Positions 5,329 to 61,648 of a DNA stretch of 64,000 bases are shown piece by piece. Position numbers and translations under genes: made by a program. Positions within the stretch are counted from its first letter, which is position 1. The number at the start of each line of letters is the position of its first letter. Source of the DNA: Periplaneta americana (lineage: Eukaryota > Arthropoda > Insecta > Blattodea > Blattidae); the NCBI RefSeq assembly GCF_040183065.1, contig NC_091131.1:104622830-104686829 (forward strand), in the 5' to 3' direction. The notes under the pieces were generated by a model. The model had not been told where the DNA came from and did not search any database. It was given only the letters and a program-made list of their open reading frames with translations.

Positions 5329-5476
5329 ATGTATGTCTTAATGGTGACGATGTTTATAGCTGCAGGAAGTGCCTCGTCTGAAGAACTTACACCGACGATA
5401 ATAAAAGAAGTCAGTCTAGCTGTACAGAGACAATATCAATCAACATGTGTCATTCTTCTGTATAGCGATGAACAAG
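5329..5476 (+). CDS. Gene A exon 1 (signal peptide)
   Basis: 148 nt, ending in phase 1 before GTAAAG. It encodes MYVLMVTMFIAAGSAS as a signal peptide, then a segment ending YQSTCVILLYSDEQ. Gene B exon 1 has the same length and phase and carries FQSTCVILC at the aligned place. An overlapping out-of-frame ATG at 5280 would make a short upstream ORF if the leader starts before it. Confidence 0.85.
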
Positions 5477-5611
5477 GTAAAGGAGAAGTGTGACAGAAAT
5501 TGTGTTGTTTGTTTCTTGAGATCATAATATGTATCACCATATAGACAGGAAAGATATCATCAGGTATTAAGCATCGACAACAATGGGATCATTACAAAGT
5601 TATAATTTTCA

Positions 5612-5666
<55 letters not shown>

Positions 5667-6917: not shown

Positions 6918-6966
<49 letters not shown>

Positions 6967-7351: not shown

Positions 7352-7408
<57 letters not shown>

Positions 7409-13400: not shown

Positions 13401-16400
13401 AGTGATGGCTGCTTGGACACAAGTAATAAGGATACTATTCTCGAGTCAGGTAGTAGATATATACTGTAAAATTTCACAGCCCTTAAACAATAGCCGACAG
13501 CCTTGGAGACCAGCTTCAAACCTTCTCCATTATTAGTACCGTCAGATCTGTAAACTGGTTACTCCACCTACAAGTCTGATAGCTGACCGCCATAACTGAA
13601 AGACTCAGAAACGCACTTCACTCTTACAATCTTTCTTTAGTGCGTGACGTGACGTTACCATGGAAACCAAGTGCTGTATGAGAATGGAAGCCCAAATAAT
13701 GTCACCTCTGCAGTATTGTAAGTTCCAATAGACATCGCTCGGCGCTCGTAACAGTGTTGGCATTATTCTATTCAGCGGACGGTTACAGGTGCTATTTAAA
13801 CATCTAAACATTGTTCATAACGACTGAAAAAAAAATCTTTTTTTTTATTTTATAAATACGGTACCGGTAATAACTAGAATTAATTATTAATAAGAGACAA
13901 AATTGTGTTTTACATGTTAATAGGTGAAGTGACACTTCACCTACTCCACCTGAATAACCGCCCCTGTCGTAATGATGATAATTATTGTTTAGATTGTTAT
14001 AATATTTATACAAAACACTTGAATTCGTGCTTGTAATTCTCAGTGATATTTCTATCTCGTGTACCTCAATTTTAACAAGTTCATCACGAAAATGCCTCTT
14101 TGCTGCAGGAATGAGGAAACATGTTCATGAACTGAATTTGGAAAAGACTTTTGCTGGCCTCTTAATAAGCGTCACCCGACACTCGCTGTGGACGCTGAAC
14201 GGAACTCTGGTGGGGAAGCACTGCATTAGTCCTCTCTACATTATCCTGTCCTGTGACGAGCACACTCAACAAGCAGTGGAGCAGGTATTATTCGAGCTTG
14301 AGCTTAATTTCATCAATCAGCTCTAAAAGGAAGTAGGGTCAATGGAGTATCACTTTAAAATTTCAAATGGGAGTCTGGGTCAAATAAGGTACCATTTGAT
14401 AGAGCTCTTCAAAACAAACAACTTTCATAGGAAACGTTTTATTAATTCCTATTCTTTCAATGAGAAAACGTACGAAAGGCAATGGATGATTCGGACCACA
14501 CCTAAGCCATTTATTTCGGAATCTAGTGTATTAAAATTTTCGAGAAAAAAATATTTATAACTAAACCACATGTGAACTTTCACTTGAGCTTGATTTCATT
14601 AATCAGCTCTAACAGGAAGTAGGGTCAGTGGCGTATCAATTTAAAATTTCAAATGGGAGTCGGGGTCAAATAGCTCTTCAAAACAAACAACTTTCATACT
14701 CTTCCAATGCGAAAACGTACAAAAAGATAATCCTATCAATATTGAGAAATGTTACAAGACGAAAATGTAAACAAGACAATTAATGTTGACATTTTACTGA
14801 AAGACTGGACAATTTCATTAATTTTTATAAATGTTCAAACTGTCTGCCGTTCTGAGCAGCACACACCCGTACTCTTCTTCTAACACTGTCAGTGACTGGT
14901 AACATTTCGGCGTGGCCAAGTGACTGGCAGGTCTCCCGGATTCGCTGTTTTCTGTCATCTGTTATTGTGGGACAATCTTGATAGGCGATGTTTTTTAACC
15001 GTCCCCAAGAATAGAAATCCAAAGGATTCAAGTCAGGAGATAGTGCTGGCCATGCCACAGAACCGCATTTCCCAATCTATCGCCCAGCGAAGAGCTGATT
15101 GGCTGTATCACGCGCCACCAAAGAGAAATGAGCTGTGCAACCATCCTGCTGAAGCCACATTACTGCTCGTGTTGCCAGTGGTACGTCCTCCAAAAGTTGG
15201 TTGAGGATGATCTTCAGGAAGTCAGCATACATGACAGTGACGGCTCTTGCATATTTCTTAAGAGGAGGAAAGAAGTTAACAGCGCAAAATGACACATTCT
15301 TGAGAGAAACATAGGCCTACTACAAATTAGCCTACATGCATACATGTAAGACCAGATAGTGTTAGAGTTGGTCTTCTCTTTTGTATGGGAAATAATCTGT
15401 TAGGAAAGCGAGAACACTGCACCCACTTACGTGGTCTGTGTTGCCACATGTACATTTTACAAGTTCAGTATCACATGCTTTTGAAGAATGTCAGTTCTTG
15501 TAAAGTCATACTACCATTTGTTCAAAGCAGCCGATTAATTTTTTATGTTAAAAATAATGTAGTTTGGAGTACTTTCAATTTCAAATATATTTGTACAAAA
15601 CTGACAACTTGGCTGTTGTCCTGTCTAGTAGACAATGAATGGAAGTGAATTTTAGGGGTCAAAAAGATCTGCGATGCTAACGTAGAACTATTTCCTCTTT
15701 GTTTTATATAAATCTAACTTCAACTTTCAGATATTCTCGAAAGTTTCAAACCATGAATAGTAGCTTATATAAAGTGCAATGAATAATATATTTTGTTTTA
15801 TAATTTAAAAAAAAAAGTTTATATAGTATCTTTCATAGCTTTGCGTTAAAACTGTTTTTATTGTGCCTCCTCCTAGATGTGTTATAGTCTGGTTGAATGC
15901 AGCATCGTTAGATAGCCCATGCGCTGATTCAGAGGAGGATCTCCTCCCTCTCCGTTCATGTACTTGCTTTAAAACTCTGCTTCTGTCTCTCGCCGCTAAT
16001 GGGCTGTTGTCTATGTGTGTTAACTGCAGTAAAAAAGGAGGAAAGGATTGACTTTCCTCCACACAAACAACTCGCATCTTTCTCACAGTTTTCTAGCAGC
16101 ACATGAGTGCGCGTCGTTTAAAACTCGATCAACCGAGGTTTTCTTATAGCTGTGAACTTAAAAATTATCGAATCTTCCTTGAATTTCAAAGCATATATTT
16201 CATTTGGTATTTACTTTCAAAAGAAGAAAAATGTGAGGAGGACGTTCCTCCCTTCCCTCCCCCGAGAAACCGCCACTAATACATGACACTATTCAGAGTG
16301 CCTTCAAAGAAATAAGGTCCAATCATTCGGTGTCCGAAGATGTCACACTAGACGTTGACACTCTACCTATGCTGGCTGTCCACTTCTCTCAGCCAGACAG

Positions 16401-18882
16401 GACTGACCTTTAGACCAGTAGTGACCATTATGGATATTGACATCGCCATTGCTCTTGAATGTCGCTTCATCTGTGCAAAGAATATAGCGATGAAACCGAC
16501 AGATTTTACCTGACAATTAATTCTATTTTTGGGGACGGTTAAAAACATCGTTTATCAAGACTGTCCCACAATAAGAGATGACATAAAACAGCGAATCCGA
16601 GAGACTTGCCAGTCACCTGACCACGCCGAAGTGTTATGAGTCATTGATAGTGTTAGAAGATACGGGTGTGTGCTGCTCAGAACAGCAGACAGTTTGAACA
16701 TTTATAAAAATTAATGGAATTGTCCAGTCTTTCAGTAAAATGTCAACATTTTCGTCTTTTAACATTTCTTAATATTGATGACATTGTCTTTTTGTACGTT
16801 TTCTCAATGAAAGACTAGGAATTGGTAAAAACGTTTCCTATGAAAGTTTTGTTTTGAAGAGCTCTGTCAAATAGTATCCTATTTGACCCCGACTCCCATT
16901 TGAAATTTTAAAGTAATATGTCACTGACCCTACTTCCTGTTAGAGCTGATTAATGAAATCAAGCTCAAGTGAAAGGTCACATGTGGTTTGGTTATACAGT
17001 TTTTTTTTTTTTTCGAAAATTTTAATGCACTAGATTCCGATGTGTGCACTAGATGTGTGGTCCGAATCATCCATTGCCTTTCGTACGTTTTCTCATTGAA
17101 AGAATAGGAATCAATAAAACGTTTCCTATTAAAGTTGTTTGTTTTGAAGAGCTCTATCAAATGGTACCATATTTGACCCAGACTCCCATTTGAAATTTTA
17201 AAGTGATACGCTACTGACCCTACTTCCTGTCAGAGCTGATTGATGAAATTAAGCTCAAGTGAAAGTCCACATGTGCTTTAGTCATAAATATTTTTTTCTC
17301 GAAAATTTTAATGCACTAGTTTCCGAAATAAATTACTGTTACGGGTGGTCTGAATCACCCTGTTATATACAAAACTAAAACAAGTTGTTGGGAGTTAGAA
17401 TTATGAAGAAACACTTTATTGGTTCATTAAATCTATTTTCTTAATTTAATCTAGAGTCAATTCTCGCTCACTGAATACAACAAATTTGCACATGTGTGTT
17501 CTCTTCTAGTTGTCATGGAGAACGAGTCTGACATTTGGAAGGTGGCTGATGTTCCTGGACGCGAGGCCAATGGACCAGTTCTTCAGGGATGTCTATATTC
17601 CTTTCGACTGCGAATTTCTGGTGGCGCAGAGCGACACGTCGTCTGATGGCTTGCGGGTCTTGTTGACTGAAGTGTACCACATGCACCCAACTCATCAGAT
17701 GCAAATGCTTCACGCGGGAGTGTGGAGCCCTCGAGTCGGACTCACGTGGACTTCCATCCCCTTCTTGCTCCGAAGAGGCGACTTGCACGGTGTCACTCTC
17801 AAGGGCGCTGTCGTGACAAGTGTAAGTAGTCGTCGTCGTCGTCGTCGTCATCATCATCATCATCATCATCGTCATCATCATCAACTAGCCGAATTTTTAA
17901 TATAAACCAGACATTTCCAACTGCTGGCTCTGTGACATAACAAGTCTCTGCTCTCGTGCTCTTCGAGAGGGGAAGCATAGGTGAAAGAGCAAAGTAAAGG
18001 CGGTGGCGGTGGAAGGGATGCAGATGTTTAAATAGCGGAGACACAACATTACCTTCTCTCACGTGCTCTATAAGATCTGCTTCTATGGTCCGTCCGAGAA
18101 ATCTGTAGAGAAGAAAAACGAAACAAGACGTCTGCGCAAGTGGTATGTGGGAGAGCAAGGGCCAACGATCGTTCAGGGGGGAAATGTTGGTTGAACGAAG
18201 CCAACAATCGCTTGCAGGGAGAGAATTACTTCTATCTGAACACAAGTATTTATTATTCAGTCTATCTTAAATAAGAAGCAATTAATTGCAATCAGTTTCG
18301 ACCTGATATTTAGATAAATATTATCCTTATTTATCTAAATATCAGGTCGAAACTGATTGTAATTAATTGCTTCTTATTTAAGATAGATTGAATAATCAAT
18401 ACTTCTACCACGAGATCCTACCCCTTAGCGGCCCCGAGCTGATGCTGCCCGCAAAACACTCCGGCACAGATAGGCTCCGCCCCCAAATGCGTGAAGTTAC
18501 TCTACAGATTCCTGGGACGGACCATAGAGAGAAAACGCACTCCGACGTTACAGGTTGGTCAGCTGGAAATTACTGATATAAACACTAAAAATTACTGCGA
18601 TTAAGGCGAAAAACATGTGCAAGTTTCATGTGAGTTATAAATAAGCCATTGGCCCATTGGTATTTATATCACCGGGCGGGATGGGATAATCTCTGTAATT
18701 TACACTACTGCCCAAGTATGACCTTTATGTACCCATTATGAAGTGGGTTGCGTGCTGATTATGCTGTGCTATTCGGCTAAGTCTACATTTCATACTCAAA
18801 ACTGTTTAGGAAATAGCTACTTTTAATATGGTAGTAAACAAACTGCTGTTGCTGCTACTGCTGCTGCTACTGCTACTACTAG

Positions 18883-18950
<68 letters not shown>

Positions 18951-20233: not shown

Positions 20234-23200
20234 GTTGTTGTTGTTGTAAACTTGTGTTGGGCAAACCCATAGGTGGAGGGAGAACAGTTTCCTTGGGGGG
20301 GGGGCAAACAAAACCATAGAATCCCGATGTAACAATTTATGGGGGACATTATTTACCTCCTCCCCCCGTTATAGCTTGACCGTGGTACATTATATCGGAA
20401 AATGATCATTTAATTAAGTTATTTGGGGGGGGGCATATTTCTTACAGTGTTACATCCATATCCGCTATGTTTCGGACCGAGTTGTATAGGGCTTGAACTG
20501 TAGGTCTACTACAAATTATACTAGGGCATCACTTAAAACTATCTCCCTATTTTTTCTCTCTCATATACAAACACATGTATACATCAATAACACTGCGTAA
20601 CAGTGCTAACAGAAAACTTTTTTATCTGAAGCTTACCTTCCTGAAATGTAAATTCTAATTATTTTACTTAATCTCTCATCTTTAAATTTACACTTTATAC
20701 CGGAATCACTTTTCTCTTTTTTTCATTGTTCTGCAGTATATTATTCATATTTCTCCAAGTGACGGCCTGAACACCAGCAGACTTCTAACACATGAATACA
20801 GGCTATTACAAAAGAAACATTACAGTGCTTCCTTTCCTCAAATTAACTTAGGTATAGAAATTCTTATACATTCAGAAATTTAAAATAAATGTTATAGTCC
20901 AGACACATGATCTGAAGACATTAATTCGTCAATTTGAGCACAGAAACTTAATCGTAAACAGAAGCAAGAAAAATCTTTTGAATTCAATATTTTCTAATGT
21001 TAATAAAAAAAGAGTTCTGACAAGTTTGGGGGGGGCAGTCTCCATCAGCCGCCATCAGTGAATCTGAATGGTTCTTATATAGGGCAGGAATTAGCAGACG
21101 AATGACATCGTGCACTGTTGTGTAATGGCGGTGTGTTCTGCTTTAGTTCTGCTGTATTGCTTGTAATGAGCACAACGTAAAAACAATATGTTAATGGCTT
21201 ATGAGCAAACATGTCAACGGACCAGTTATTACTACTGGTTGAAGAAATAAATTGTTTATGCTCTCTTTTCTTTGAACGAGATGGCAGTACGGAAATTTCG
21301 CAAAATTTTGCTAGCGTAGCACAGACAACAACTTATACAGTCGCCATGACAGCCATCGATCCTTCCAGCAGTTTTGTTCCTATTTCGCTGCAGCGTGACG
21401 TCATTGTTGTCCACTGGTCCAATGAGATTCGGAATACGCTGTAAGATATGCCTCATGAAATTTTGTCCAGTGTATGGAATCGATGCCCACTCAGTATCGC
21501 AATAGATTTCAGAAGCAATGTTAAATAGCGAAATGCGGTTTCGGAAACCATCACCTCTGCTGAGACATGTGGAGGTGTGGCTAGTAGTCGGTTGGTCGGC
21601 CTTGGCCCTTCATAAGCTGTAGCGCTAAGGATTAAAAAAGTATACCTGTCTGATTATGAACTCTCTTGTGGTGTTTTGTTTTCTTGCTTAAATTTGTACC
21701 AGTCTTCCTGTATCTTGTATTCCTTCACCAGCTGCATACGATTTCGAGCACATTAGGAAGGAGTGGGACATTAGGTTACTCGATTTCGGCAGTATAGTAA
21801 CACGATGATACGATAAGGTGTTTATGATAAGAATATAAGAAGCAGGCATAATTAGGGAGCAATCAAAATTTTATTTACTTGATACATTATTTCCCTGTTA
21901 CATATTTTTCAGGGACGAGGTGAATCTACTGGCAAAGAGAGGAGGGCGTCTGGAATTGCTGGATATACTGGCAACATTTGGAAGGTTGTGGAAGAAGCTT
22001 CTAACTTCAAGTAAGTATTCAAGATTTATTCTTAGGATTAAATTATCATATCAAAACGATGATTAGCCTATCTATATGAACAGAATATAAAACATTCTTT
22101 AATTTTCTCATTTTACGAAGCATAAGGAAAGTATTATGACGTTACAAACACCTATTTTAATGTCCTTGTGGGAATACACATTTTCCCGGTAAATTGATTA
22201 TGGTATTTTGTGTATCTGTTAAAATGTTTGTCCACTAAACTATTGAATCGATTTTCTTTACACTCAAAATCTACCAATAAACTGATCAGAGAATTATTCG
22301 CAAATATAATGAAGCATTTTTTTTTTTTTTTTCGATTTCAGAACAGAGTATTTTTACACCAGCGACAACACTGTGGGCTTCATCGGCAACAATGGCACTG
22401 CGACCGGGATATTCAGAATGGTGCTCGACAACGATGTGGAAATCGGCTTAGAAACGTCAACAATTAATACAGATTACTTGCCGTACGTGAATTTCCTGTT
22501 CCCAACCTGGTGCTACAGGTACGTTCCTTTTGATATAGATTTATCCTGTATCTAAAATTCAACTTAAAATAAGACATTGATTTAAGTACGTATCGTATAG
22601 GGAGTGGAAATTAAGAGAATCGTCTTTAATTAATCCCTGCAATGGCTGGACTTGGTGTTATTTATTACTGTGCAATAGGCCTATTCTCCAGACAGATACT
22701 TTCGAGATATCTCATGTAAATTCTATTTCACGGAGAGGAGAATGTGGTTTTTCTTTGAACATCAGCACAACGGCAAGTTTCAAATCATTGTCAGTGGAAG
22801 ATCTACCAGATTATTTTTATATCTCTGACATGATCATTTCTCATGAAAAACAAGAACTGAAAAGACTACAATGGACTATAGTGGACTTTATGTTGTCAGC
22901 AAACAGCTGGATACATTAAGAAGATTGATGATAATTTTCTCTGAATTGCGCTTGTTAGATAGTTGACTGAGAAAAAGGTTACTGATTTGGACGAGTTTCG
23001 TTAAAAATTCTGCATATATTCTGTTGTGAAAGTATGTCTTCTGTCACCAAATTCTGACATCATCAGGATCTCAATTCTCTCATGTTCTGTTAACATTTTG
23101 TTGTACTTTAAAACTGCTTTTATAATACAAGGACTAACAGAATGAACCAGCAATAAAACTGTTACCACAGTAACCATAATTATAGCACAGTCTAGTACAT

Positions 23201-26200
23201 ACAGCCACGAAGCTTGAGTTTATGAGGGTACTAGGAACAATAGACTGTGCAGATAGGCCTACTATTTCGCATTGTCTGTAATGAGGCGACAGTAGCGATC
23301 CTAGTGGTTAGCAACTATCTATGGATGCATATTTACTACATATTGAGCTTCGTGGCTGTATATACTAGACTATGATTATAGTGCTTCTGTATAAAACAAA
23401 TGAAGTGCTGCATAGAAAATTATGCTCTTTGAGATGATAATTAGGAATATAAAGTGCCATTTTAAAAAGTTCTCTATATCGTCAAAACTAGACCTCGGAT
23501 TTTTAGGCCCTTGATACTAAGTTCTAGGCACCTAAAATAGGCTTTAAAATTATCAAAGTAGGCACTGAAAATACAGTTTAGGCACCTAAAAATATGATTT
23601 TAGACAGCTAAAAATACTGTTTCTTGCACTCAAAGTGTTTTTCTATCCACTCAAACTACAATAACTATAAAAATGCAATTAATTGGTGAATATTAAGCAT
23701 TACGGTGTACAGTGACAAAAACAGTGGCCTACTCATAAAAAGGTATTGTGGTTAGAAACTTTATTTTTGTTAGGCCTATGTGTTAAATTACGAATAATTA
23801 TTAATGAATTAATCGATCTCATTGCCCTATGACTGCTGATACACAAGTGTTAATATTATAATTAATTGATTTATCAATGAATTTACAATGAACACATTAT
23901 TCATAATTGGCACTGCAATACTTATTATAACAAGTTTTATTTCTAAATTTCTTTGTTGTGAAACTTTTCCTTTTCTTAGTCAGAACCATTTTACAGGTGG
24001 AAAAAAGTTATTTTAATGATAGACTACCGAAGTAATGGGTGAATATTTAAATCTAGCAGCATTTTCCATGCCGATTTCGTAATGGAGAAGTACATCCAGC
24101 CCTTTCATTACATTCCTACTGCATGTTCAAGTGGTCAACAAAACCACTTCCCAGCAATTTCATGTTGTATGATTTATCCGATAAGCAGGTTGTAATACAA
24201 TGTTAAAATTGAAATATACCGTCTATACTTATCTAGTATTATATGATTAATTATAACATAAACGTTTTCGGCACCAATGTGCCATTTTCAAATGTATGAA
24301 AATTTGCCTAATTACATGTTCAAATAGGTGCACATGAACTGTGTGATAAGTATAGACGGTATATTTCAATTTTAACATTGTATTACTTCCCAGCAATTTC
24401 TTAATTCCTATAACCGAACTATTACAAAGTATTTACCCCATGATATTCAAAACTTTCTCTTTCATAGTTACACGAAAAAATTAAAAACATATTGACAAAA
24501 TATAAATATGATGAAGGATGAGTGGAACAGAGAAAAATTCTCTCCCGCACCGGGATCTGAAACCGGGTCTTCAGATCCCAGTGCCGGAGAGAATTTTTCT
24601 CTGTTCCACTCATCCTTCATCATATGATGACGCAGAATTTCTGCACGGATATATCATATGTACTTCGGTACATCGTAATAATATAAAATATAAATAGTCT
24701 AGGCATTTTTAGGCTCTGATACCTTAAAATAGGTCACAATGGGCAAAATAGGCATTTTAGGCACCACAAAATCCCTTTTAAACGTTCATATTTTACGTGA
24801 AATTGAACGAAATGTAATAGTTGTAAGTTACATTATCTGTAGGCCTATAGAAAAGAAATGCATTTAGCCTAAAATCTGAGATTTAGTCGTAACTCGTACA
24901 ACAATAGTCGCAAAAGTATGTTTCTATAAAAATATTCCTTTCTAAATATAAAGCGTCTCTTAGCTTTTTGTTAAAAGTCCCCTTATTCAATTTTTTGCAA
25001 ATAGGCCTAATCGTTACTTTTGAAAACTTTGTTATATTCAATTAGTTACTAAGGGGCTAGTCTGCAGCACGACTTAACAGAAAGATTTCACCTTCTTTGT
25101 CTTCTCTAATAACGGTTTCGACATGTTATTCCGAAACGTTGGATGCATTTGCAACTACGGCGTGTTGCAAAAAAAGCATACGCCATTATTTACCTAAACT
25201 TATTCGGATATTGAGAGGTTTTAATACTCCTAGAGGATTTTCCTCAAGAACTATACTTTGTTTCTCTTTCCGACCTATGTTGGAGAGACACAAGGTGAGA
25301 TGCTCGTCATCTGGGGTGAGCACGGTACTAGACCTGCTCTAACACAAAAGAAGATATCATAGGTCGGATAAACATGGATGGTATGAAATATTTATCGACT
25401 GATGGTTGATTTTCAGGTTATCGATGTTCATCAAGAAGCCTTCAATTTACAACTCGTTGTGGGACGCCGTAGCAGCGCCATTTTCTCGCGGAATGTGGTT
25501 CGCAGTGTTGTCGGCAATGATAATGCTCGCGCTTGTCCTCACCGGCACCTGGTACATTGGGCGTGTCTGCGGAGAGAAGGGCAAGCAAAGATTGTGCCTC
25601 AAGGATACGTGGTTTTATATTTTTGGGGTTTTCTGTTCCCAGGGTAAGTCATTTTCTGGTAACAATATGTAACACCAATATGTATCCTACTGTGTTTTCT
25701 TTCATTATTATTAATCTATTATTTTATTGTGTACTTTTTATTTAGTTGTCTGTTTCCGGTTTAATTATGTGAATCCTACTTTCTTGTAATCTAATACTAA
25801 TATGTATTCCAATGTGTTTATTTTTATTTTTACTGTGTACATTTTTTATTGAATTATCGGCTTCTGTTTTTGTGTGATTCTTATTTGATTCTAACAACAT
25901 TAATATGTATACCACTATGTTTATTTTTATTTTATGAGATAAATTATGTAACTACCTTTTTTGATCTCATTATGTACCTAAATCGTATCAGTATGTAATT
26001 ACTTAATTCCGATCCAGTTGTTGTTCAACTATGTAAGCAAGTTTTAATCCTGGTTGAGTGTAAGAGAAGGCCTTACGGCCTTAACTCTGCCAGGTTAAAT
26101 AAAGCCATTATTATTATTATTATTATTATTATCATTATTATTATTATTGTTATTATTATTATTATATTAATATAGCCTACATTGTGAGGCAGAAGTCAGG

Positions 26201-42872: not shown

Positions 42873-43020
42873 ATGTATTGGTTAGTCATACTACTGATGC
42901 CTGTGACCGCTAGTCAATTCATTTCTGTTAAACAGAAGTCTATAATATTTACAGAAGTTAGCATAGGTGTACTGTATAGGTTCCAATCCACTTGTGTCAT
43001 TCTGTGTACTGAACAGGAAG
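42873..43020 (+). CDS. Gene B exon 1 (signal peptide)
   Basis: 148 nt, ending GAAG/GTATGG in phase 1. MYWLVILLMPVTASQF is the signal peptide. FQSTCVILCTEQE aligns with gene A. Confidence 0.82.
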
Positions 43021-46770: not shown

Positions 46771-46826
<56 letters not shown>

Positions 46827-47353: not shown

Positions 47354-47393
<40 letters not shown>

Positions 47394-49482
47394 TGTTTTT
47401 TCTTTCGTCTTCCTATCTTTATTTATACTCTTTTTCCTTCTTTCTCCTTTATTTCTTTCTTTATTATTTTTTCTTTCTTTCTCATTTCTTCTTTCTTTCT
47501 TTTTCCTTTCTTTCTTCTTTCTTTCTGTCTTATTTTCCTCTTTCTTTCTTTCTTCCTTCCTTTCTTTTTTCTTTCTTTCTTTCTTAGTTCATTCACTATT
47601 TTTTATCCACAAACAGTAATGTAAATATTGATTACATGTATTTGTAGATAAATATATATTAGATTAAATACACTCCTCAGGAATCAGTTATACCTATATG
47701 CAGGGAGAGAACTGAAGAAAACTGTTGTTAATAGATTTATATTAATAATAAACCGACTTTTGCCAGTACACAACTTTCCTGTTTGCATAGCTTACAACTG
47801 GCATTGTGTGTATTACTGCTATTTAATATTTTAACTCACAACATACGGCTTTTAATGTGACTATTACACCTTTACTATGTCATACTACTTTTGAGCAATA
47901 AAACGGATTGGAAAGGACGTGTTTCAACCAATAATGGCTGTTTATCGCTACAATTTTATCACATCCCTAGCGTTTGTTTTTATCACTTCCCTAGCATTTG
48001 TTTTTATCATTTTTCCTGGCATTTTTTTGCCAAAATTTCAAACTGCGAATTCTTTACGGTACTATAAAACATGCTTTGCGATCGTCATTTGTTTCCCGCG
48101 TAGATAGTCACTTGAAAATGACGGCTCCATTCAAACGTTTTTGTGAAGCTAACATTAGTAAAATATAATTTAATAAGTCAATTAATACCTATCTATTTCA
48201 TTGTATTAGACTACTTCATTTCTTCTAATCTTTATTATACTTTCTTCTGTTTTTATCAGCTCCCTACCACCTGTTTCTTTGTTTGTCAACATTTCAGACT
48301 GCAAATTCTTTACGGTACCGTCAACGCGGGCTACTTGGACCCTTAAGGTATTACTTGAACCCAGAAGAAAAAAATGTTTACTTATCATTGGAGTAACTTA
48401 GGTGAAAATATTTGTACAGATGAAAGTTTGCAGAGAAAAAAAACACAACTTTCGACACCAAACTGTTATTTTACTGAATTTAAATACTATTATAGTCACA
48501 ATCATGCCATGGTATGAAAGAAAAATTTCATACCATGGCATGATTGTGACTATAATAGTATTTAAATTCATTAATATGTCACATCAACGGACGTGTATAC
48601 GTCACCAAACATCGTAAGATGAAGATTACATTTGTTATTTTACATCGACGAAAACATTTTTTTCTTCTGGGTTGACACCTTAAGGGTCAAAGTATCCCGC
48701 GTTGACGGTACTATAAAACATGCTTTGCGATCATCATTTGTTCACTGCATAGATAGTCAACTGTAAATGGCAGCTCCGTTCAAACGTTTTGGTGAAGCTA
48801 ACATCAGTGAAATAGAATTTTAGTAAGTCAATTAATATTTTATTGTATTAGAGTACTTTATTTCTTTTAATTTTTATATAATTTCTTCTAATCGTGTAAT
48901 AGTCAATTAAATCTCACTCGAGTTTTGATTTTCTCTAGATAAATCAAAACCTCTAATGAGATTAGGCCTACTGTTGATAACATGTTATTCGTTATAGAAA
49001 CCAGAAATCGTGAACTTGAATTCCACGTTGCAAAAACAGTCGTGAATCGCCTCATCACTGTGATAACGCAGCCCCTCCAAGGTCTGAATGCAACACTGGT
49101 CGCAGATGAATGCTACAGTCCTCTCTTCATAATTCTCTCAAGTAGCAATCAAGTGAAGAAATCTCTGGAGCAGGTGAATTTTTCATTCTTTAAGTTATTC
49201 TTCTTATTCATCATCATCATAATCATCAGCATCATCATCATCACCGGCGTAACTCAATCGGCTGAGGCGCTTGCCTTCCAATCCGGAGTTGAGTTCGGGC
49301 GCGGGTTTGATTTCGGTTTGGGCTGATTACCTGGTTTGGTTTTTTCCGAGGTTTATCTCAACAGTAAGGTAATCCATGGCGAATCCTAGATCTCATTTCG
49401 CTAAGTACCATCTCGTTATCACCAATCCCATCGAAGCTAAATAACCACGTAGTTGATACGGTGTCACTAAATAACCAACTAA

Positions 49483-49513
<31 letters not shown>

Positions 49514-52500
49514 ACCACTTTAAGGAAAGCATTCTGCCAGTTATTTGCTGTTAATAGAAATTTGAACTTAAACTTACACTAGATTTTCACAAATAGAGGG
49601 AAACACATCCACGATTTCATTGACACATGCAAACCTACTGGTAGTCAAGTTTAGCTGAGGGTAATGCAATTCAGTAATGTAGTAATATTATGCTGTATGA
49701 TATTTCATGGTAGATTACTGATTACTAAGAGATTAAGAGATTTATTCCGAAGAAAATAATTTGCTACTTACATCTGTCATTTCAGAACAACATTGTTTTC
49801 TCCATTATATAACTTTGTGTCACACGGTATAAAAAAGGCCAAATTTCGAAGTATATTACCCTATGAGAAACAATAAAACGTATCCTAAGAAAAACAATAC
49901 AAGAAAAGAAACAATGTTGTAGTTCCATAGTCAATGGCCATACTTATTTGAAGTACGGTTCAGAAAATTGGAAAAGAAACAGAGTTGGCTGATAAAAGAA
50001 ACAGCTGAAATGAAGTTTCTGGAATACATTGCTTGGTGCACAGTGCGAATTAACGAGGGATGGGGGATTTCCCCCCTGTTGGAAGTTATCCCCTCATAAA
50101 TTCATATGAACATCCCTGCCAGGGATAACTTCTATCCCCCCTCACAAAATATAATTGTTTTAATACGAGTATAAGAGTATATGTATATGAGTATATGTAC
50201 TTTATGAAGTACAAAGTAAGCAAAGAAAATAATATTTCTGTATTATCATCACTGGCAAGCTGACAACAACCAATAACTTAGGAATTACACATCTTATCTT
50301 AAGCCTGCACACGGATATAATTATCATTATTATGATCAAGATGCAAGACAAGCAACTCAGTGCGACCAAGGGTTGAGCCGTATAGAATGAGGATAATAAT
50401 AATTTTATGTATGGTATTCTCTATCTAGGATTCTATCCCCCCATCAGAAATCTTAATTCGCACCCTGGCTGGGTGTACCCGTTATGATCACATAAACGTC
50501 ATAAACGATATTATGGAAGCAACTCAAAATTGTTACCTTAAATTAAAAAATGACTAAATATAACACGTTTCAGGTATGACTTCTGATAGCACGAAAGTTA
50601 TAGGCCTACATTTCCCTACAACAATGCGAGCCACAAAGAAGACGAGACTCGATATAAGGTAACACGACGCTGATTGCAAGATGACTTCTGAGTTGTGACT
50701 GGCCAGGAGATCTACCATGCAGTAGATGGTGGTGATGGTGATGGTGATGGTGATGGTGATGGTGATGGTGATGGTGATGGTGATGATGATGATGATGATA
50801 ATGATGATGATGATGATAATGAAAATAATTAAAGTGAGTGTTAGGCCTACAAGAAAACTTTATCAGACTTCTTTTATTCCAACAATGTACCACTTGCACC
50901 AATTTGACAGGTTTATACAGCACATACGACATACGAGGCGCGTCCATAAAGTAACTTTTCCACTCGCCTCACAGCTAGCAAACCATGTTGCGCAAAGCGA
51001 CTGCGTGTACGTGATAGAGTAATGCCCTGGTATGGCGCATGCGCTAGCGGAACTTCCCGAGTGCTCTCAGTAGCTTCGTTGCATTGGTTGACGATGGACG
51101 TTCCTATTCCAGCTCCCGCCGCCTGTGAAGTGCGGTCAGTGATAAAGTTTTTGAATGCACAGGGCATAGCACTGATTGAAATTGATCATCAACTGTGCCA
51201 GATCTATGAGCAAGCAGATGGTGCGTTGCTGCTATAGACAATTATCAGCAGGACGCCAAAATGTGCATAACGAAGAGCGCAGTGGGAGGCCAACCATAAT
51301 CACAGACGACCTTGTGGAGCAACGCAGCACCTGCTTGCTCATGGCGTTAGGCCCATAGACCTGGCACAGCTGATGATCAATTTCAATTGGCGCTATGCCC
51401 TGTGCATTCAAAAACTTTATCACTGACCGCACTTCACAGGCGGCGGGAGCTGGAATAGGAACGTCCATCTTCAACCAATGCAACGAAGCTACTGAGAGCA
51501 CTCAGGAAGTTCCACTAGCGCATGAGCCATGCCAGGACATTACTCTACCACGTACACGCAGTCGCTTCGCGCAATATAGGGTTTGCTAGCTGTGGGACGA
51601 GTGGGCAAGTTACTTTATGGAAGCGCCTCGTACATTAGCGATTATCACTTTTTAAGGGTGATATATTTACAGCTTCCGTCGAAGTCCAGTCTCTCTTACG
51701 GAAGGTGGCTGATGTTCATGAACCCAGTATCACCAATGAAAGAGTTCTTCCGCAATATCAGCGTTCTCTACAACTGCGAGTTTCTTGTGGCCGAATTATC
51801 TGAATCTGGAAAAGCCGATTTGGAAGTAGTCCTCACCGAGATTTATTACATCCACCCCTCTCTACCTCTGCAAGTGCATCGACTGGGAAGGTGGAGTCAG
51901 CACCAAGGATTCTTTTGGACCATCAGGCCACAGAATGAGATGAGAGACGACTTACAGGGTATCCAGTTAACGGCAGCTGTTGTGTCAAGCGTAACTATCC
52001 ACTTCTTTCAAATGTAGACTCTGTACATTGTGAAATTAGATATCAAGTGAAATATAAATGGACGGTCCACTGGGGCAAGATAATGGTAACCCACTTTCTA
52101 CTTCAGCATGCTTTTTAAAGTGCTTTTGCAACAAGAGTAAACAAACTTTATGTTCAGAAATTGTTTGATAACTAAAAGTTAGTGGTAAAACATATATCAA
52201 TTATCATTCTTAAATTTACTTATTAATAGGTTAACGACAACCTAAGTTTATGCTGAAGACCAATTGATGGCAACCATTAGGCTATCTTGCCCCGACGGGC
52301 TGATACTATTTCTCTTAAAAATGACGCATTAAATGTGTCATTGTGCATATTATACAGCAGAATAACAATTATTACACACCAGTATTTCAAAGTTACAGCA
52401 TAATTTACATATTTATAAAATATTCATCATAATTAGGCCTTTTATTAATTTAGTTTTTATCATTTTTATTAATATTGTTGTGTTATTATTGTAATTCATG

Positions 52501-53315: not shown

Positions 53316-53388
<73 letters not shown>

Positions 53389-56300: not shown

Positions 56301-56602
56301 TGCCTAGGTCGTTTCCATTTATCCATCCGGCTTCTACTTTCATGAGGATTCTCAACAATTTTTGTTTTCCGATATAGGGTAGTCGGCCCTATGATCAACC
56401 CCCAACCTGGAGGGCCAGGTAGTTTGTCATCAGGGTTTTCTTCCCCTAGCCTTTGTAGAGACAACTACTAACTGCATGGCAGCAGTGCTGATTTTGGTCC
56501 ACCCTGGGTATTTTATTTCCCCAGTACCCACCATATCTGGTGAACATTCCCCTATCCGCCACCTGGGGAGGCGCCCGATGGGAGATCAGCAACTCCACAC
56601 GG

Positions 56603-56667
<65 letters not shown>

Positions 56668-59600
56668 GTCCTTATTATGGACAACTCAACATTATGAGGA
56701 AAATTTACATGTCGACAAAGATACTTCTGTACCTGTAAGTGATATTGATCTTATAGAATATGAAGAAATGGAACAAATTCTACAGTCTTTGTCTAATAAT
56801 AAATCTCCAGGTAGCGACGATCTGAATATAGAACTTTTGAAATATGCCCCAGTTGGAATAAAACAACGCTTACTGAATATATTAAACAACTGTTGGATAA
56901 CATATAAAATACCAGAAGAATGGACAAAAGCAATAGTAATCCTAATATATAAAAAAGGTGACCGCGAAAATCCCAACAATTATCGAGGCATTAGTCTATT
57001 GAACACCACTTACAAACTCTACGCTAAAATAATTACTCGCCGTTTGAACACCATTAGTGAAACAAAATTAGACGAAATACAATGTGGATTTAGGAAAGGA
57101 CGGTCCTGTGCCGATTGTGTGTTTGTGATGCAACAAATAATCCAGAAAAGAAGAGAATTTAATCTCCCCCGTGGATTACGAAAAAGCCTTTGACAAGGTT
57201 TTAAGAAATAAGTTATGGAATATATTGTCCAAAGAAGGATATCCAACACACCTAGTGAAAATGGTTAAAAGCTTATACGAGACAAGAATATCAGTAAGAA
57301 TAGGAAACAAAACGAGTGATACAATAATTGTAAATCAAGGCGTTAAGCAAGGCTGCCCATTATCTCCAACATTATTCAATATATACATAGATAAAGCCAC
57401 AGAAGAATGGCAGAATAAAATAACAACCGGCATAAATATAGGCACGACATTATTGAAGTCCATGCTTTTTGCTGACGATCAGATCTTGATGGCAGAATCG
57501 GAGGATGACTTACAGGTGGCAGCTTATCAACTACAATTAATAATGGAAAAATATAATCTTAAAATTTCTAATCATAAAACAAAAACAATGGCATTTGAAG
57601 GAGTTGATCACAGAAGATGTAAAATAGTTTTAAATCATGAAATCATAGAACAGGTATCCTCATTTAACTATTTAGGCTGCAATATATCATACGTAAAAGA
57701 ACAAGATGTCAAAAATAAAATGAGTAAATTCCACCAGATGTGTGGAACAATACGAAGGACCTTAAAAAATAAAACACAACGTTCAACACAGCTAAAATTT
57801 TATACAACGTTAGCTGTCCTACTATTAACCTATGGTTCAGAAAATTGGTCTGTAAACCGAGCAACTAAAAAGAAAATTGAAACCAGCGAAATGAAATCCC
57901 TTCGAAGTGTTGCTGGTCTCACTCTTTTAGATCATCAAAAGAACAAAAATATACGACAACAATTAAATATTTTTAATTTGACTGATATAATACAATGACA
58001 AAAACATAATTGGTACCAACATATAAGAAGAATGAATGACGACCGGTTACCTAAAGTAATACTGAACTATGAACCAAGAGGACACAGAAATGTTGGTAGA
58101 TCAAGAACAAGATGGATAGACGACATAAACTTTGAAGATGGAACAGGCCAATAGGCCTAATCCCTGTGGTTGATGATGATGATTATTGTCCTTATTGCTA
58201 TTATTATTATTCTTATTATTATTATTATTATTATTACTATTATTATTATCATATTCCGTGTGCACATCTTCCATGTTAATTGATTAATGCATTTTGAATA
58301 TTAACAAAAATTTCCACAATAGTTCTACACAAAGCTATAAATAACAGAAAGGAAGCCAAAAACTACTTTTTCGAATCAGGGATACTGAAAAAAATCTCTA
58401 AAAGCGTATATTTGAACGAAAGATGTTTAAAACCTGTATTTATATGAAAATATGAAACTATATGCCTTGTTCAATGTTATGTTTTAGGGTTTGGGAAGTA
58501 TAAAAGTTGGCAACAGAACAAAGGCTTCGGGTCTTGCAGGATACACAGGAGATATTTGGACGGTTGTACAAAAAGCTGCAAATTTTCGGTAAGATTGTAT
58601 CAGTTTATTGTTACCCACTGGTTTATGTATTGATGTTTTATACATTTCTAATGCATACCATAAAATAATTCAAAGAACTTTCATTTTACTATTAACTAAT
58701 GCTTACTCTTTTATCAATTAATTAATTAATTCATTCATTCTTTCATTCATTCAGTCATTCTTTCGTTCGTTCGTTCATTCATTCACTCATTCATTCATTC
58801 ATTTATCCACTCATCTACTTATTCATTTGTTCATTGTTTTAAGACTTCTATATGTTATACAGTATGTATTTCACTCAAATCGCTCTGATTTTAATGTTTC
58901 AGTACAGAAAGTTTCTTCACTCCTGATCAAAGTTTAGGCCGGATCGAGAAGAACGGGTCAGCAACAGGAATATTCGAGATGGTTCTGAAGAAAGAAGTAC
59001 AGATTGGACTCGAGACAACAACTATAAATCCGAATTATCTACCATACATCAGTTTCTTATACCCAACTTGGAGCTTCAGGTATTCGCATGGTATAAATAT
59101 TTTCAACTTCCTCTGGAATCTTTATCGCAGTAGTCGGCAGTAGAGATGAACAAAACTAACTGCCGCTCTCGCTCGCTGTGTTCGCTGCATTTGCCTTTCG
59201 AGTCTCGGCTCGACATTCTCGTGCGCTTCGAGTCTCGCTCGTCATTCTCGAAATAGCATTTGGTCGGCGTGGAAAGATTTCGTAACTTTGAATAACATGC
59301 ACCTTTGAAATAAATAACATAAATGTTTAAATGAGATAAAAAGACAAAACAGAACAGCATCTTAGTTATCAAAATGTTCTGGTTCTATTATATGATATTA
59401 CCTATGGTTATATAAATAGAAAAAAAAACAATTCTCAAATAAATTTGCATTTATAAGAAACATAAAACATGACATGAATATATTTTTACTTGAGATTGCA
59501 CACTTGATCTTAAACATATGAAAAGAAAATTCGTAGCCTTTTAGTAAGGGCGTAGTAATTAAATAAAGACTGGGGAACGGATTATTATACACTGAAAGGT

Positions 59601-61648
59601 AGAGCTGATGTTTCAAATAGGCTACGTAATTGTTTATACACATATAACAGTTGCCAAAGTAGATAAAAGTTCAGTCAGACATAAAGAACTGTGACGATTC
59701 AAGACTACTTAACTTCGGGATGTCGGGACTCATCAATATGATATTGATATAGCAATATATCAATATCAATATGATATTGATGAGTCAGACAACATCGAGT
59801 CTCGAAAAACTCACAACCAGTCTTTACGTCAAGGACGCGACGTAATACAACATTGTCGTGCGGTTTTCGGTTTTGCGGGCGCTGTTAGTCTCGTTTTCTC
59901 GAGCGTTGTTCATCTCTAGTCGGCAGGGTTCGTGCTCCGTGATGTCATTCCTACGAACAGTTTTGCTCACTTGAGAATCGGCAGCTAGTGCTCTGGGTTG
60001 GCGGGGTGTAGGTCGTAGAGTCGTGCACAACCGATTACGAAAAATAGAAATTATATATTGCTATTGAACGCCTGGCGCTTTAGTCAGTATGCAAAGCTCT
60101 TCCGTCTCGCGGAGTGTCTCAGGTTTTACTTTTGTGGAAGAGGCCCTGGTTGTATCCACTGAGATTTTATACGAGGAAGGTTACTGTTGTTGGCACTATT
60201 GCAGGCTGTCGACGTACATTAAGAAGCCATCCATCTTCGGCTCGATGGGGGAGGCTGTGGTGGCGCCGTACTCGCGTGGTATGTGGCTGGCCGTGATACT
60301 GTCCATGTGCGTGCTGGTCGTTGCGCTGGTCGCCACGTGGCACGTGGGCTGCAAGCACGGAGGCTTGGAGGGCACGGGTCCAGACAGCTTCAGCCTCACT
60401 CACTCCTGGTTCTACGTTTTCGCTATATTCTGCAAGCAAGGTGAGCTCCATGGCAACCACGAGTCGTGTGCAGATTCGATATCTGCCGTTCAGATGGAGA
60501 AGACTTCAGTTCCTAAGTAGAATAAAGACGGTCAGTATGCTGTACGATTATAGGTTATTTGTTTCAACGTTGGATTGGATGAGGAGGCCCAATTCCTTGG
60601 GCACCGCGATCACCAGACGTCAGTCCACCTGGACTTTTTGCGTGTCACCTTCTTAGTTTATCGTTACAGAAAAGTGACGCATGCGTATAACATCAGTCAA
60701 CTGACGTTAACGTTTACCGTAAATGCTAGTAAGCTGGGCAAAAACTCTCTATTGTCGTCGGAAAGTAAACGTCGCATTTTAGCACAGAAAATAATTTTGT
60801 CCGTGAAGCTTAACTTCGTTACATTAACATTTCACTTGTAGACGAAAATTATACTTAGGCTGATGATAATTCAAGATTTCTGAATGGTGTCATATGTTGC
60901 TGATCATCCTAAATTCTCGCAAATATGAATAATTACAATATATGCACGACTATGCGATACCTTTATTGCACATATCTATTCAAACCGTATAACTGAAGTT
61001 AAACGTCTTAATTTTATTAACTATAAAGAATGCCTTCCGTTTGCAATTGCGACAACGAAAGTTCTCCCTCTTATTTAGTAATAGTGGCATTGCCCACGAT
61101 CCGAGAGCCTAAAAAGTTTGGCAGCATCTTCCTATTTCGGTGTATGAAATGATTTCACGTATCTATGTATGTTTTTGAATAGGCCTAACATTAAAAAAAA
61201 AACTATATACAGCAATATCATTCACAACATGATAAAAGAATAATTCATTGCTGCTAAAAAGCATTTAAAAATATAAATGATGAAGTATGTGTTATCTTAG
61301 TAACAGATACTCATATTAACTTCCTGTTTAGAGAGGGAAACATAACTTCCTTAATGTTTACTCAAAATTTAAAGCGAACTATTTTCTGCATAAGAGAACT
61401 CTATCGATTATTTACAGAATCTGATAACTTACTTCGCAGGTATTAATGCCACCCCTCACTCCAAGGCAGGCCGGATAGTGAACTTGGTGGCACTTCTCAC
61501 TGCTGTTATAGTGCTCGAAGCCTATTCAGCCATCATTATCTCTTTTCTGACAGTCAACAGAATCCAACTGCCGTTCACAGATTTCGAAGGTCTTATAGGT
61601 GGAGAGTATAAGTTTGGAGTCGCTGCTTACAACATCATTTTATTTCGG
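42873..61648 (+). CDS. Divergent ionotropic receptor (gene B), 3' partial
   Basis: A paralogue of gene A, with the same presumed role as a chemosensory channel subunit. Joined 42873-43020, 48998-49173, 51673-51990, 58488-58588, 58903-59079, 60205-60440 and 61440-61648. Phases agree and the exons give 455 residues without a stop. Residues 1-15 form a signal peptide. An RDDLQGIQL motif precedes S1. S1 spans about 215-330 and M1 333-354. The pore loop carries WFYVFAIFCKQ. M2 has GRIVNLVALLTAV and AYSAIIISFL. Exons 1, 2 and 5 equal those of gene A in length (148, 176, 177 nt). Others differ by a few codons, so the pair is an old duplication. The last two exons (S2, M3) should follow position 64000. 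The Arg of S1 is again replaced by Tyr. No frame defect is seen in the visible part. Confidence 0.88.
43021..43631. other. Unassigned intron 1 start of gene B
   Basis: No element ends or coding motifs recognised. Confidence 0.4.
43634..44533 (+). mobile_element. Tc1/mariner-like element with about 215-bp inverted ends
   Basis: It begins CACTGTGTCCCAAAAGTCAT and ends with its inverse, flanked by TA on both sides (43632-43633, 44534-44535), the Tc1/mariner target. The interior is a decayed, shortened transposase. Confidence 0.85.
43833..44270 (+). pseudogene. Decayed transposase (DDE_3)
   Basis: It starts MDVQRRVNVVAYLIKKHH, a mariner-like HTH start, then GIRQLKETGSLLEKKRTGR. After several stops and frameshifts, VLFSDEATYHVSGHV marks the catalytic Asp region. 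The C-terminal catalytic part is deleted. It lies on the plus strand, as does the host gene. Confidence 0.75.
44534..44974. other. Repeat-like spacer
   Basis: The phrases TGTCACTCGTGGTAC and AATGTGCCTCGAGGTTTTCCA recur at 46885-47005 in the same order, indicating another dispersed repeat on both sides of the element at 44975. Confidence 0.45.
44975..46470 (-). mobile_element. DDE_3 DNA transposon with about 185-bp inverted ends
   Basis: The left end CAGGGTGTTAAAAAATACGG and the right end (inverse CAGGGTTTTTAAAAAATACGG) continue as near-identical arms for about 185 bp (ACATGTGTCAGGAAATGC, GAAATTCACCGGAA). The left flank is TA and the right flank CA, so the expected TA duplication is imperfect. 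It carries a broken transposase on the minus strand. Confidence 0.85.
45100..46216 (-). pseudogene. HTH/DDE_3 transposase pseudogene (DUF4817-like)
   Basis: The first 187 codons (46216-45653) are open: MYSNQDLAEIHLMYSKADGN, RRLYQERYPQRQCPDRKTF, then a Pro/Arg linker GRGRPRSTTPEV, HTH SISTRRVALQVNVPHTTVW and the DDE start ALVLFTDEAQFTRDGI (first Asp of the core). A frameshift near 45655 moves to RFSLNMWAGIIGDRLVGP and FLENTIPHVLED, after which stops accumulate. The final Asp/Glu region is unreadable. It is the best-preserved transposase of this family in the window. Confidence 0.88.
46471..46772. other. Unassigned intron sequence
   Basis: No motifs recognised. Confidence 0.4.
46773..46816. 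repeat. (TA)n microsatellite
   Basis: A pure TA run. Confidence 0.95.
47353..47586. repeat. Polypyrimidine (TTTC)n tract
   Basis: About 230 bases of almost pure T and C, with TTTC and TTCC repeats, in the sense strand of intron 1 of gene B. The Ser/Phe-rich ORFs through it are artefacts. Confidence 0.95.
47920..48318. repeat. Tandem duplication, about 256-bp period
   Basis: TCTTTACGGTAC occurs at about 48051 and again at about 48307, with homologous sequence on both sides (ATTTCAAACTGCGAATT versus ATTTCAGACTGCAAATT). The second unit is split by the MITE at 48319-48707 and resumes as GTACTATAAAACATGC. Confidence 0.7.
48319..48707. mobile_element. MITE with known empty site
   Basis: The ends CGTCAACGCGGG and the inverse CCCGCGTTGACG are perfect. 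GTAC flanks both sides (48315-48318 and 48708-48711). The uninterrupted first tandem unit at about 48051-48130 shows the pre-insertion site. Inside is a 45-bp-arm palindrome. Confidence 0.88.
48475..48570. repeat. Palindrome with 45-bp arms, 6-base loop
   Basis: TGAATTTAAATACTATTATA begins the left arm. The loop is GAAAAA (48520-48525) and the right arm ends with the exact inverse. I saw no mismatch. It sits about 430 bp before exon 2 of gene B. Confidence 0.95.
48998..49173 (+). CDS. Gene B exon 2
   Basis: 176 nt, after GTTATAG and before GTGAAT. It encodes TRNRELEFHVAKTV, then SPLFIILSSSN. It has the same length and phases as gene A exon 2. The acceptor lacks a strong pyrimidine tract. Confidence 0.83.
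49245..49485 (+). mobile_element. SINE with alternative tRNA head
   Basis: The head GTAACTCAATCGGCTGAGGC and GGGTTTGATTTCGG are a different tRNA-like module from the copies at 18954 and 36868, but the tail GCTAAATAACCACGTAGTTG and the GGTTTTTTCCGAGG body follow the same layout. (ATC)n runs lie on both sides. Confidence 0.75.
49868..50560 (+). pseudogene. RTE thumb-region relic, interrupted by a MITE
   Basis: Frames give YLKYGSENW and AEMKFLEYIA, then after the MITE GCTRYDHINVINDI. This is homologous to LTYGSENW..EMKSLRSVAG and LLDHQKN of the RTE element at 56677. Stops throughout. Confidence 0.6.
50039..50467. mobile_element. MITE inserted in RTE relic
   Basis: CACAGTGCGAATTAACGAGG and ATGGGGG at the left are mirrored by CCCCCCATCAGAAATC and TTAATTCGCACCCTG. 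The flanks GCTTGGTG and GCTGGGTG (8 bp, one mismatch) and the restored codon order support a hAT-type insertion. Confidence 0.65.
50727..50822. repeat. (GGTGAT)n/(GAT)n microsatellite
   Basis: Hexamer repeats pass into GAT trinucleotides. His and Met-rich ORFs across it are artefacts. Confidence 0.95.
50934..51630. mobile_element. Mariner foldback with HTH-coding arms
   Basis: The ends CGAGGCGCGTCCATAAAGTA and the inverse TACTTTATGGAAGCGCCTCG are flanked by TA. The two arms (about 300 bp) each encode MDVPIPAPAACEVRSVIKFL and LNAQGIA.IEID.QLCQ, the HTH_48 start of a mariner-type transposase, in opposite directions. The catalytic domain is missing. The right end lies 42 bp before exon 3 of gene B. 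Confidence 0.85.
51673..51990 (+). CDS. Gene B exon 3
   Basis: 318 nt, phase 0, after ATTTACAG and before GTAACT. It encodes YGRWLMFMNPVSPMKEFF, NCEFLVAEL, EIYYIHPS and RDDLQGIQL. The upstream codons that extend this ORF belong to the foldback element, not to the gene. Confidence 0.9.
51991..52572. other. Unassigned intron 3 sequence
   Basis: AT-rich, no motifs recognised. Confidence 0.4.
52581..52905. mobile_element. hAT-type MITE with perfect target duplication
   Basis: The ends TAGAGCCCGGAATTTTAGG and the inverse CCTAAAATTCCTGGCTCTA are flanked by ATTATGAA (52573-52580 and 52906-52913). 325 bp, no ORF. Confidence 0.85.
53392..54873 (-). CDS. RTE reverse transcriptase ORF (transposon)
   Basis: 493 open codons. 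In order: NNKSPGCDSIPADMFKYG, YKKGDKFDCSNYRGIALL, GFRPGKSTIGHIF, YIDFRQAYDTI (block A, catalytic Asp), GLRQGDPLSPVIFNLALE (block B), YADDVAIIAR (block C, catalytic Asp pair), FKYLGTMI, RPVVTYASEAW, and the terminal RLRWLGHLERMPEDR..RGRPRLRWLQDVEDDL. All polymerase blocks are intact, which suggests recent activity, but the upstream endonuclease frame is broken. The M at the start is probably internal to the original longer ORF. Confidence 0.9.
   Translation of the reverse strand: MKNNKSPGCDSIPADMFKYGEQGVIESLHELISEVWEKEEMPREWSKAILCPIYKKGDKFDCSNYRGIALLPVAYKILSIKIYDRLMKWVEKIIGEYQSGFRPGKSTIGHIFYLRMVLEKFYENDIDLHHLYIDFRQAYDTIIREEVLEAMYWLGIPKKLIRLIKMTWKSTTCQVKIGRDLSEEFYVYNGLRQGDPLSPVIFNLALEKAIRAIKTNPGGTIYNRLTQHLAYADDVAIIARTKAALSGSLQEFEEEAKKLGLEINERKTKYMKTSRREVQKQDNVVFHHHNFENCTSFKYLGTMITNNNDTSSEIKTRIMAGNRCLFGLGKLFKLSSLSRCAKKIIYKTILRPVVTYASEAWVLTINNENMLAVWERKVLRKIYGPHFENGQFRSRTNKELMELYGEPSIVSFIKKGRLRWLGHLERMPEDRLPKRALYGHPGGLRKRGRPRLRWLQDVEDDLRRVGCKRWRQRAQDRDEWFLLIKETQALHGL
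55116..56464 (-). pseudogene. RTE endonuclease and linker, broken frame
   Basis: 56464-55886 reads IWNVRSLLQPGASRDLEQVL, ILALQEIRWR, GTGFMVRN and SLISVHAP, the AP-endonuclease core (the Glu of QEIRW and His of HAP are catalytic in the family). After a frameshift, 55889-55668 gives MVLGDFNAKIG (DFN). After a stop, 55652-55116 gives CGSDHFLV (SDH) and a Lys/Glu-rich linker. All key endonuclease residues are still present across the three pieces. Confidence 0.85.
56606..56676. repeat. (ATT)n microsatellite, RTE target
   Basis: This lies between the 5' end of the minus RTE and the plus RTE. Its last 15 bases (ATTATTGTCCTTATT) are repeated at 58182-58196 after the plus element. Confidence 0.9.
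56677..58181 (+). pseudogene. RTE element, 5' truncated, one frameshift
   Basis: Frame 1 to about 57170: NNKSPGSDDLNIELLK, YKKGDRENPNNYRGISLL, FRKGRSCADCVFVMQQI. Frame 2 from 57171: DYEKAFDKVLRNKLW (block A), QGVKQGCPLSPTLFNIYID (block B), FADDQILMAESEDDLQ (block C), LTYGSENWSVNR and SLRSVAGLTLLDHQK, then a stop and WYQHIRRMNDDRLPK. One frameshift and one stop disable it. The GATGATGATG tail and the 15-bp target duplication match a typical RTE insertion. It is a relative of 31718-33015. Confidence 0.88.
58182..58250. repeat. Target duplication and ATT microsatellite remainder
   Basis: Starts ATTATTGTCCTTATT (58182-58196), then ATT-rich. Confidence 0.85.
58488..58588 (+). CDS. Gene B exon 4
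   Basis: 101 nt after GTTTTAG, before GTAAGA. Phase 0 in, phase 2 out. It encodes ASGLAGYTGDIWTVVQKAA. One codon longer than gene A exon 4. Confidence 0.9.
58725..58810. repeat. (ATTC)n microsatellite
   Basis: ATTC and TTCG repeats fill part of the short intron 4. Confidence 0.9.
58903..59079 (+). CDS. Gene B exon 5 (S1)
   Basis: 177 nt after GTTTCAG, before GTATTC. It encodes GSATGIFEMVLKKEVQIGLE, then TTTINPNYLPYI, with Tyr at the site of the canonical Arg. Confidence 0.9.
59141..59919 (+). mobile_element. hAT MITE, complete copy
   Basis: The ends TAGAGATGAACAA and the inverse TTGTTCATCTCTA are perfect. GTCGGCAG flanks both sides (59133-59140 and 59920-59927). 779 bp with no ORF of note. 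Its interior carries a short ATATTGATGAGT palindrome near 59740-59790 that is absent from the copy at 260-938. Confidence 0.93.
60205..60440 (+). CDS. Gene B exon 6 (M1 and pore start)
   Basis: 236 nt after ATTGCAG, before GTGAGC. It encodes IKKPSIFGSMGEAVVAPYSR, the first helix GMWLAVILSMCVLVVALVA and pore WFYVFAIFCKQ. GC-rich relative to flanks. Confidence 0.93.
60560..60650 (+). pseudogene. DDE_3 transposase scrap
   Basis: The plus strand gives WIG*GGPIPWAPRSPDVSP, the block around the last catalytic Asp of the DDE_3 family. About 30 codons only. Confidence 0.6.
60651..61439. other. Unassigned intron 6 sequence of gene B
   Basis: No motifs recognised. One TAGGCCTA (61180-61187). Confidence 0.4.
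61440..61648 (+). CDS. Gene B exon 7 (M2)
   Basis: 209 nt after CTTCGCAG, before GTAACT. It encodes GRIVNLVALLTAVIVLE, AYSAIIISFLTV and the start of S2, YKFGVAAYNIILFR. Last exon of gene B inside the window. Confidence 0.92.

Follow-up and report, generated by a model that had tools for sequence, protein, structure and literature searches.

An old tandem pair of candidate intron-rich ionotropic receptor genes in Periplaneta americana

The closest described systems are the ionotropic receptors (IRs) of insects, above all those of cockroaches and termites. For Blattella germanica, Robertson et al. 2018 (PMC6175461) report 897 IR genes with an expanded Ir75 lineage; in that account the first set of the remaining IRs, Ir101-196 in the cockroach and Ir101-155 in the termite, "generally contains eight introns", and the much larger remaining set of B. 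germanica is described as largely intronless. In Periplaneta americana itself 640 candidate IRs are listed by Li et al. 2018 (PMC5861062), and an antennal transcriptome is reported to hold six IRs of the IR75 and IR64a groups (PMC4899716). Fly antennal IRs are stated to carry 4-15 introns (Croset et al. 2010, PMC2924276), and the authors of the thrips genome (PMC7570057) remark that IR families commonly include divergent members, some with introns. Tuning IRs are presented in review as being without a full amino-terminal domain, and an arginine in the S1 half of the ligand-binding domain as conserved among acid-sensing IRs.

Here we analysed a window of P. americana DNA, that is, the whole stretch of 64,000 nucleotides, and rebuilt two gene models from it. 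With a probability of roughly 0.9, judged from the sequence, we read them as products of an old tandem duplication, copies of a chemosensory insect IR gene with many introns that most likely encode tuning subunits and are predicted to be expressed. Literature searches, which were not specific to the pair, returned no description of it.

Two gene models and their shared exon layout

Exons were located through reading frames and by comparison of one copy with the other, the short exon 4 being found by pairing open AG...GT segments from the introns of the two copies. Gene 1 is complete, with nine exons, eight introns and a stop-terminated product of 616 residues; the exon ends reconstructed here from the DNA reproduce the 616-residue product that the initial annotation had proposed. 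An in-frame stop stands directly 5' of its ATG. A 19-residue hydrophobicity scan found no peak of at least 1.4 at the N-terminus of gene 1, and a hydrophobic peak at residues 578-596 corresponds to the membrane helix of exon 9. The exons of gene 1 are:

5329..5476, forward strand: exon 1 (148 nt), with the start codon, the beginning of the N-terminal region and a possible signal peptide; weak tblastn match with gene 2 exon 1 (E 0.02-0.03)
14109..14284, forward strand: exon 2 (176 nt), N-terminal domain; tblastn E 2e-7 against gene 2 exon 2
17510..17821, forward strand: exon 3 (312 nt), from the N-terminal domain into the beginning of S1; tblastn E 7e-23 against gene 2
21913..22010, forward strand: exon 4 (98 nt), S1; from the paired comparison of open reading frames, tblastn E 6e-6
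22342..22518, forward strand: exon 5 (177 nt), S1; Tyr290 in the place of the glutamate-binding arginine
25417..25643, forward strand: exon 6 (227 nt), end of S1, M1 and pore loop (Ser378 at the Q/R site)
27759..27970, forward strand: exon 7 (212 nt), M2 with the motif SYSAIIISY, and start of S2
29445..29707, forward strand: exon 8 (263 nt), S2
34823..35060, forward strand: exon 9 (238 nt including the stop), end of S2 and last membrane helix

For the start of exon 9, three open acceptors lie in 34600-34840; the one chosen in the initial annotation scores highest with the generic, untrained splice matrix described below, and the other two were rejected.

Gene 2 has seven exons in the window, 455 residues and at least six introns:

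42873..43020, forward strand: exon 1 (148 nt), hydrophobic N-terminus with a peak at residues 1-19; in-frame stop upstream
48998..49173, forward strand: exon 2 (176 nt), matched by tblastn
51673..51990, forward strand: exon 3 (318 nt), matched by tblastn; weakest donor of all sites
58488..58588, forward strand: exon 4 (101 nt), found by paired-segment comparison and tblastn; weakest acceptor of all sites
58903..59079, forward strand: exon 5 (177 nt), S1; Tyr293 in the place of the glutamate-binding arginine
60205..60440, forward strand: exon 6 (236 nt), M1 and pore loop (Lys384 at the Q/R site)
61440..61648, forward strand: exon 7 (209 nt), M2 and start of S2; GT directly 3'

Exons 8 and 9 of gene 2 were not found by tblastn in the remaining 2.35 kb of the window. 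The model of this gene, and with it the open frame, covers exons 1-7; S2 falls mostly beyond the window.

The initial annotation had described two IR genes on the same strand, head-to-tail and with starts 37.5 kb apart, sharing splice phases in all comparable exons and the lengths of exons 1, 2 and 5, and this layout is borne out. The starts lie 37,544 bases apart (42873-5329), the three exons measure 148, 176 and 177 bases in both genes, and the donor phases (gene 1, 1-0-0-2-2-1-0-2; gene 2, 1-0-0-2-2-1-0) agree at 7/7 shared exon ends. Five of the six shared introns fall at the same alignment column, and the first is displaced by one column, beside a gap. The phase match counts as partly dependent evidence, not fully independent, because exon ends were chosen in part by comparing the two copies. 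The correspondence of the exons nevertheless exceeds chance, since a tblastn search with gene 1 as query recovers all seven exons of gene 2: E-values run from 7e-23 to 6e-6 for exons 2-7, and exon 1 is matched weakly, at E 0.023.

All eight introns of gene 1 and all six complete introns of gene 2 are bounded by GT...AG. When scored with a generic, untrained matrix, the median donor of the 15 ranks within the top 1.8% of 3,585 GT sites, and the median acceptor of the 14 within the top 11% of 3,483 AG sites; the lowest scores fall on the donor of gene 2 exon 3 (top 22% of GT) and on the acceptor of its exon 4 (top 33% of AG). In both genes a short intron separates exons 4 and 5 (22011-22341, 331 bases; 58589-58902, 314 bases); the other introns span 1.0-8.6 kb, and the two copies of the short one gave no blastn match to each other at E 1e-5.

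Channel domains, ligand site and pore

Both proteins carry the channel domain of glutamate-receptor-type ligand-gated channels, by matches to Pfam Lig_chan (PF00060) above the curated cut-off (E 2.5e-15 for gene 1 and 1.1e-13 for gene 2) and by matches in the PDB. The Lig_chan-Glu_bd model also matches both, below its cut-off, from residue 224 in gene 1 and 225 in gene 2. In the PDB each protein had 171 distinct matching sequences (E up to 1 for gene 1, up to 0.001 for gene 2); the best 60 of the 171 are glutamate receptors, headed in gene 1 by kainate receptors (E 4e-16) and in gene 2 by delta receptors (E 1.5e-14). In both proteins S1 follows a stretch of about 200 residues, too short for a full amino-terminal domain, whose absence is a mark of tuning IRs.

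In the PDB alignments the S1 arginine that holds the carboxyl group of glutamate is replaced by tyrosine in both genes (Tyr290 and Tyr293, respectively), so that both ligand-binding domains are divergent with altered glutamate contacts. In gene 1 the place of the S2 threonine, which we take from GluK2/GluA2, lands in a two-residue gap, a change less certain than that of the arginine. The S2 acid of gene 1 aligns with Ala494, next to which stands Asp495, and a shift of one residue would retain the acid. From these features we infer a role as tuning subunits partnered by a co-receptor, rather than as glutamate receptors or typical acid sensors. Together with IR8a or IR25a/IR76b as its broadly expressed IR co-receptor, each subunit would form a cation channel of four subunits, sited in the dendrite of a chemosensory neuron, where the two-lobed S1-S2 domain would close on a small molecule other than glutamate and pull the channel open.

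The copies also differ in the pore. By HMMER alignment to glutamate receptors, the Q/R site, taken as the first glutamine in QQG, is occupied by Ser378 in gene 1 (codon 25637-25639) and by Lys384 in gene 2 (codon 60434-60436), a difference that would predict different calcium permeability. Given lysine in gene 2 against serine in gene 1, the channel of gene 2 may pass little calcium. A more speculative extension, which we consider improbable as a whole, is that the copies have split in channel behaviour and in ligand, the lysine making gene 2 a low-calcium channel and a parallel, in a tuning subunit, to the effect of RNA editing in GluA2, and that the pair belongs to an intron-bearing lineage between the antennal IRs and the intronless expansions; the last part was suggested by the IR75-like N-terminus together with the retained introns.

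Age of the duplication and its surroundings

The two proteins are identical at 214/448 aligned positions, and identity at codon positions 1, 2 and 3 is 0.61, 0.72 and 0.40. By the NG86 method dN is 0.44 and dS 2.48, the latter saturated, and dN/dS is therefore unreliable. The frames run without stop or frameshift over 616 codons in gene 1 and 455 in gene 2. A blastn comparison of the gene regions (3001-37500 against 40501-64000, E 1e-5, low-complexity filter on) gave just two matches, of which one lies inside exon 3 and the other links two reverse-transcriptase frames. Together with the saturated silent sites this points to an old duplication, after which both frames appear to have been kept open. 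Retroposition as the origin was ruled out because the introns are kept; a whole intron-containing gene would have been duplicated, long enough ago that its introns no longer align and its silent sites are saturated. The earlier claim of an old tandem duplication of two IR genes thus holds on the saturated silent sites, the open frames, the shared phases and the Pfam and tblastn matches. Its companion, that similarity peaks in M1, the pore and M2, is right for M2 (identity 0.61) but overstates M1 (0.50) and leaves out S1, which reaches 0.58 over exons 4-5; the pore loop stands at 0.56 and the first 205 residues at 0.40. Among stretches of 30 residues, identity is highest in S1 (0.70, within residues 262-314) and next highest in M2 (0.67).

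Candidate mobile elements lie between and inside the genes. Nested long inverted and direct repeats occupy 39593-42309, between the genes and about 0.6 kb 5' of gene 2, with, for example, arms at 39629-39891 and 42047-42309 that are 90% complementary and a pair at 41727-41956 and 42051-42280 with 93%; the arrangement suggests a mobile element of foldback type that has been inserted or duplicated upon itself. Further frames in the introns are:

31707-32966, forward strand: LINE-type frame in gene 1 intron 8
53392-54900 and 55886-56464, reverse strand: LINE-type frames in gene 2 intron 3
56492-57998, forward strand: LINE-type frame in gene 2 intron 3
45653-46225, reverse strand: transposase-like frame in gene 2 intron 1, DUF4817 barely above cut-off

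The LINE-type frames comprise reverse transcriptase (RVT_1) and one endonuclease piece; those in gene 2 account for a large part of its 6.5-kb intron 3. The frame at 45653-46225 also matches Tc3-type and other helix-turn-helix models, below their cut-offs.

A larger IR cluster, which the initial annotation expected to extend past both ends, finds no support in the window as judged by similarity searches. Tblastn with both whole proteins on both strands gave a best match outside the known exons at E 2.0, and among the matches listed from a search of both strands with peptides of exons other than 1 and 4, none was accepted as a further IR exon or fragment. Pattern matches in IMG/VR (14, of which 0 were confirmed) and in GTDB genomes (42, likewise 0 confirmed) are uninformative on the family, since neither collection covers insects.

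Lineage and comparison with known receptors

Within the IR family we see about an even chance that the pair belongs to the lineage-specific eight-intron set of cockroach and termite (the Ir101 type), where it would probably be tuned to tastes or to odours other than acids. Gene 1 has eight introns, the number general in that set, and gene 2 is incomplete in this respect; the loss of the S1 arginine also fits, although the set is compared here by its published description.

A place in the expanded IR75 lineage, antennal, IR8a-dependent and sensing volatile acids, is a tentative second assignment. The antennal-type model IR75A_N is the sole subfamily-specific Pfam model matching at E up to 1 (25.2 bits, E 1.4e-5 for gene 1; 21.1 bits, E 2.5e-4 for gene 2), with its best stretch at residues 120-210, in exon 3, of gene 1 and a match in gene 2 that spans positions 19-199 of the 199-position profile; moreover, an expanded Ir75 lineage is reported from a cockroach (PMC6175461), and P. 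americana is reported to have six IRs in the IR75 and IR64a groups (PMC4899716). Both scores, however, fall under the curated cut-off of 27, and the arginine of acid-sensing IRs is tyrosine in both genes. The label "divergent" IRs is likewise uncertain for the pair: the sole subfamily-specific match is to an antennal-type model, below its cut-off, and the S1 arginine typical of acid sensors is replaced.

That one or both genes are unexpressed pseudogenes is unlikely: such genes are reported as common among the IRs of the German cockroach (393/897, PMC6175461) and exons 8-9 of gene 2 were not found in the last 2.35 kb of the window, but the frames are open over 616 and 455 codons, every splice dinucleotide is preserved, and the copies have diverged more at third codon positions than at the first two.

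The reading as old tandem duplicates of an intron-rich, probably tuning-type IR gene sets the pair beside four known groups. From the kainate and delta glutamate receptors, with which the proteins are alignable over S1 and the channel, and for gene 1 also over S2, they differ in being without a full amino-terminal domain and in having the glutamate-binding arginine and the SYTANLAAF motif changed. With the fly divergent IRs (for example the IR94 and IR52 clades) they share the family and the occurrence in tandem arrays, but the vast majority of those genes are described as single-exon (PMC2924276), against eight introns in gene 1 and at least six in gene 2. The contrast drawn in the initial annotation with the intronless divergent IRs of flies stands for the fly genes, which are mostly single-exon, but does not make the pair unusual, because fly antennal IRs, the eight-intron set of cockroach and termite and the thrips statement all document introns in this family. 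The IR75 group (fly IR75a-c and the cockroach Ir75 expansion) resembles the pair as intron-rich antennal IRs that are multiplied in some species, with a weak match of the N-terminal model; the differences are the tyrosine in place of the S1 arginine and the model score under cut-off. BgerIr101-196 and ZnevIr101-155 (Zootermopsis nevadensis), compared by description only, are alike in family, in having, as a rule, eight introns and in their duplicated members. The two gene models are thus an addition to a large, fast-evolving receptor family that changes no general view, and a clear case of a duplication keeping every shared intron. Intron-rich, duplicated IRs are already documented in cockroach, termite and other insects, and the pair follows this ordinary pattern of the family.
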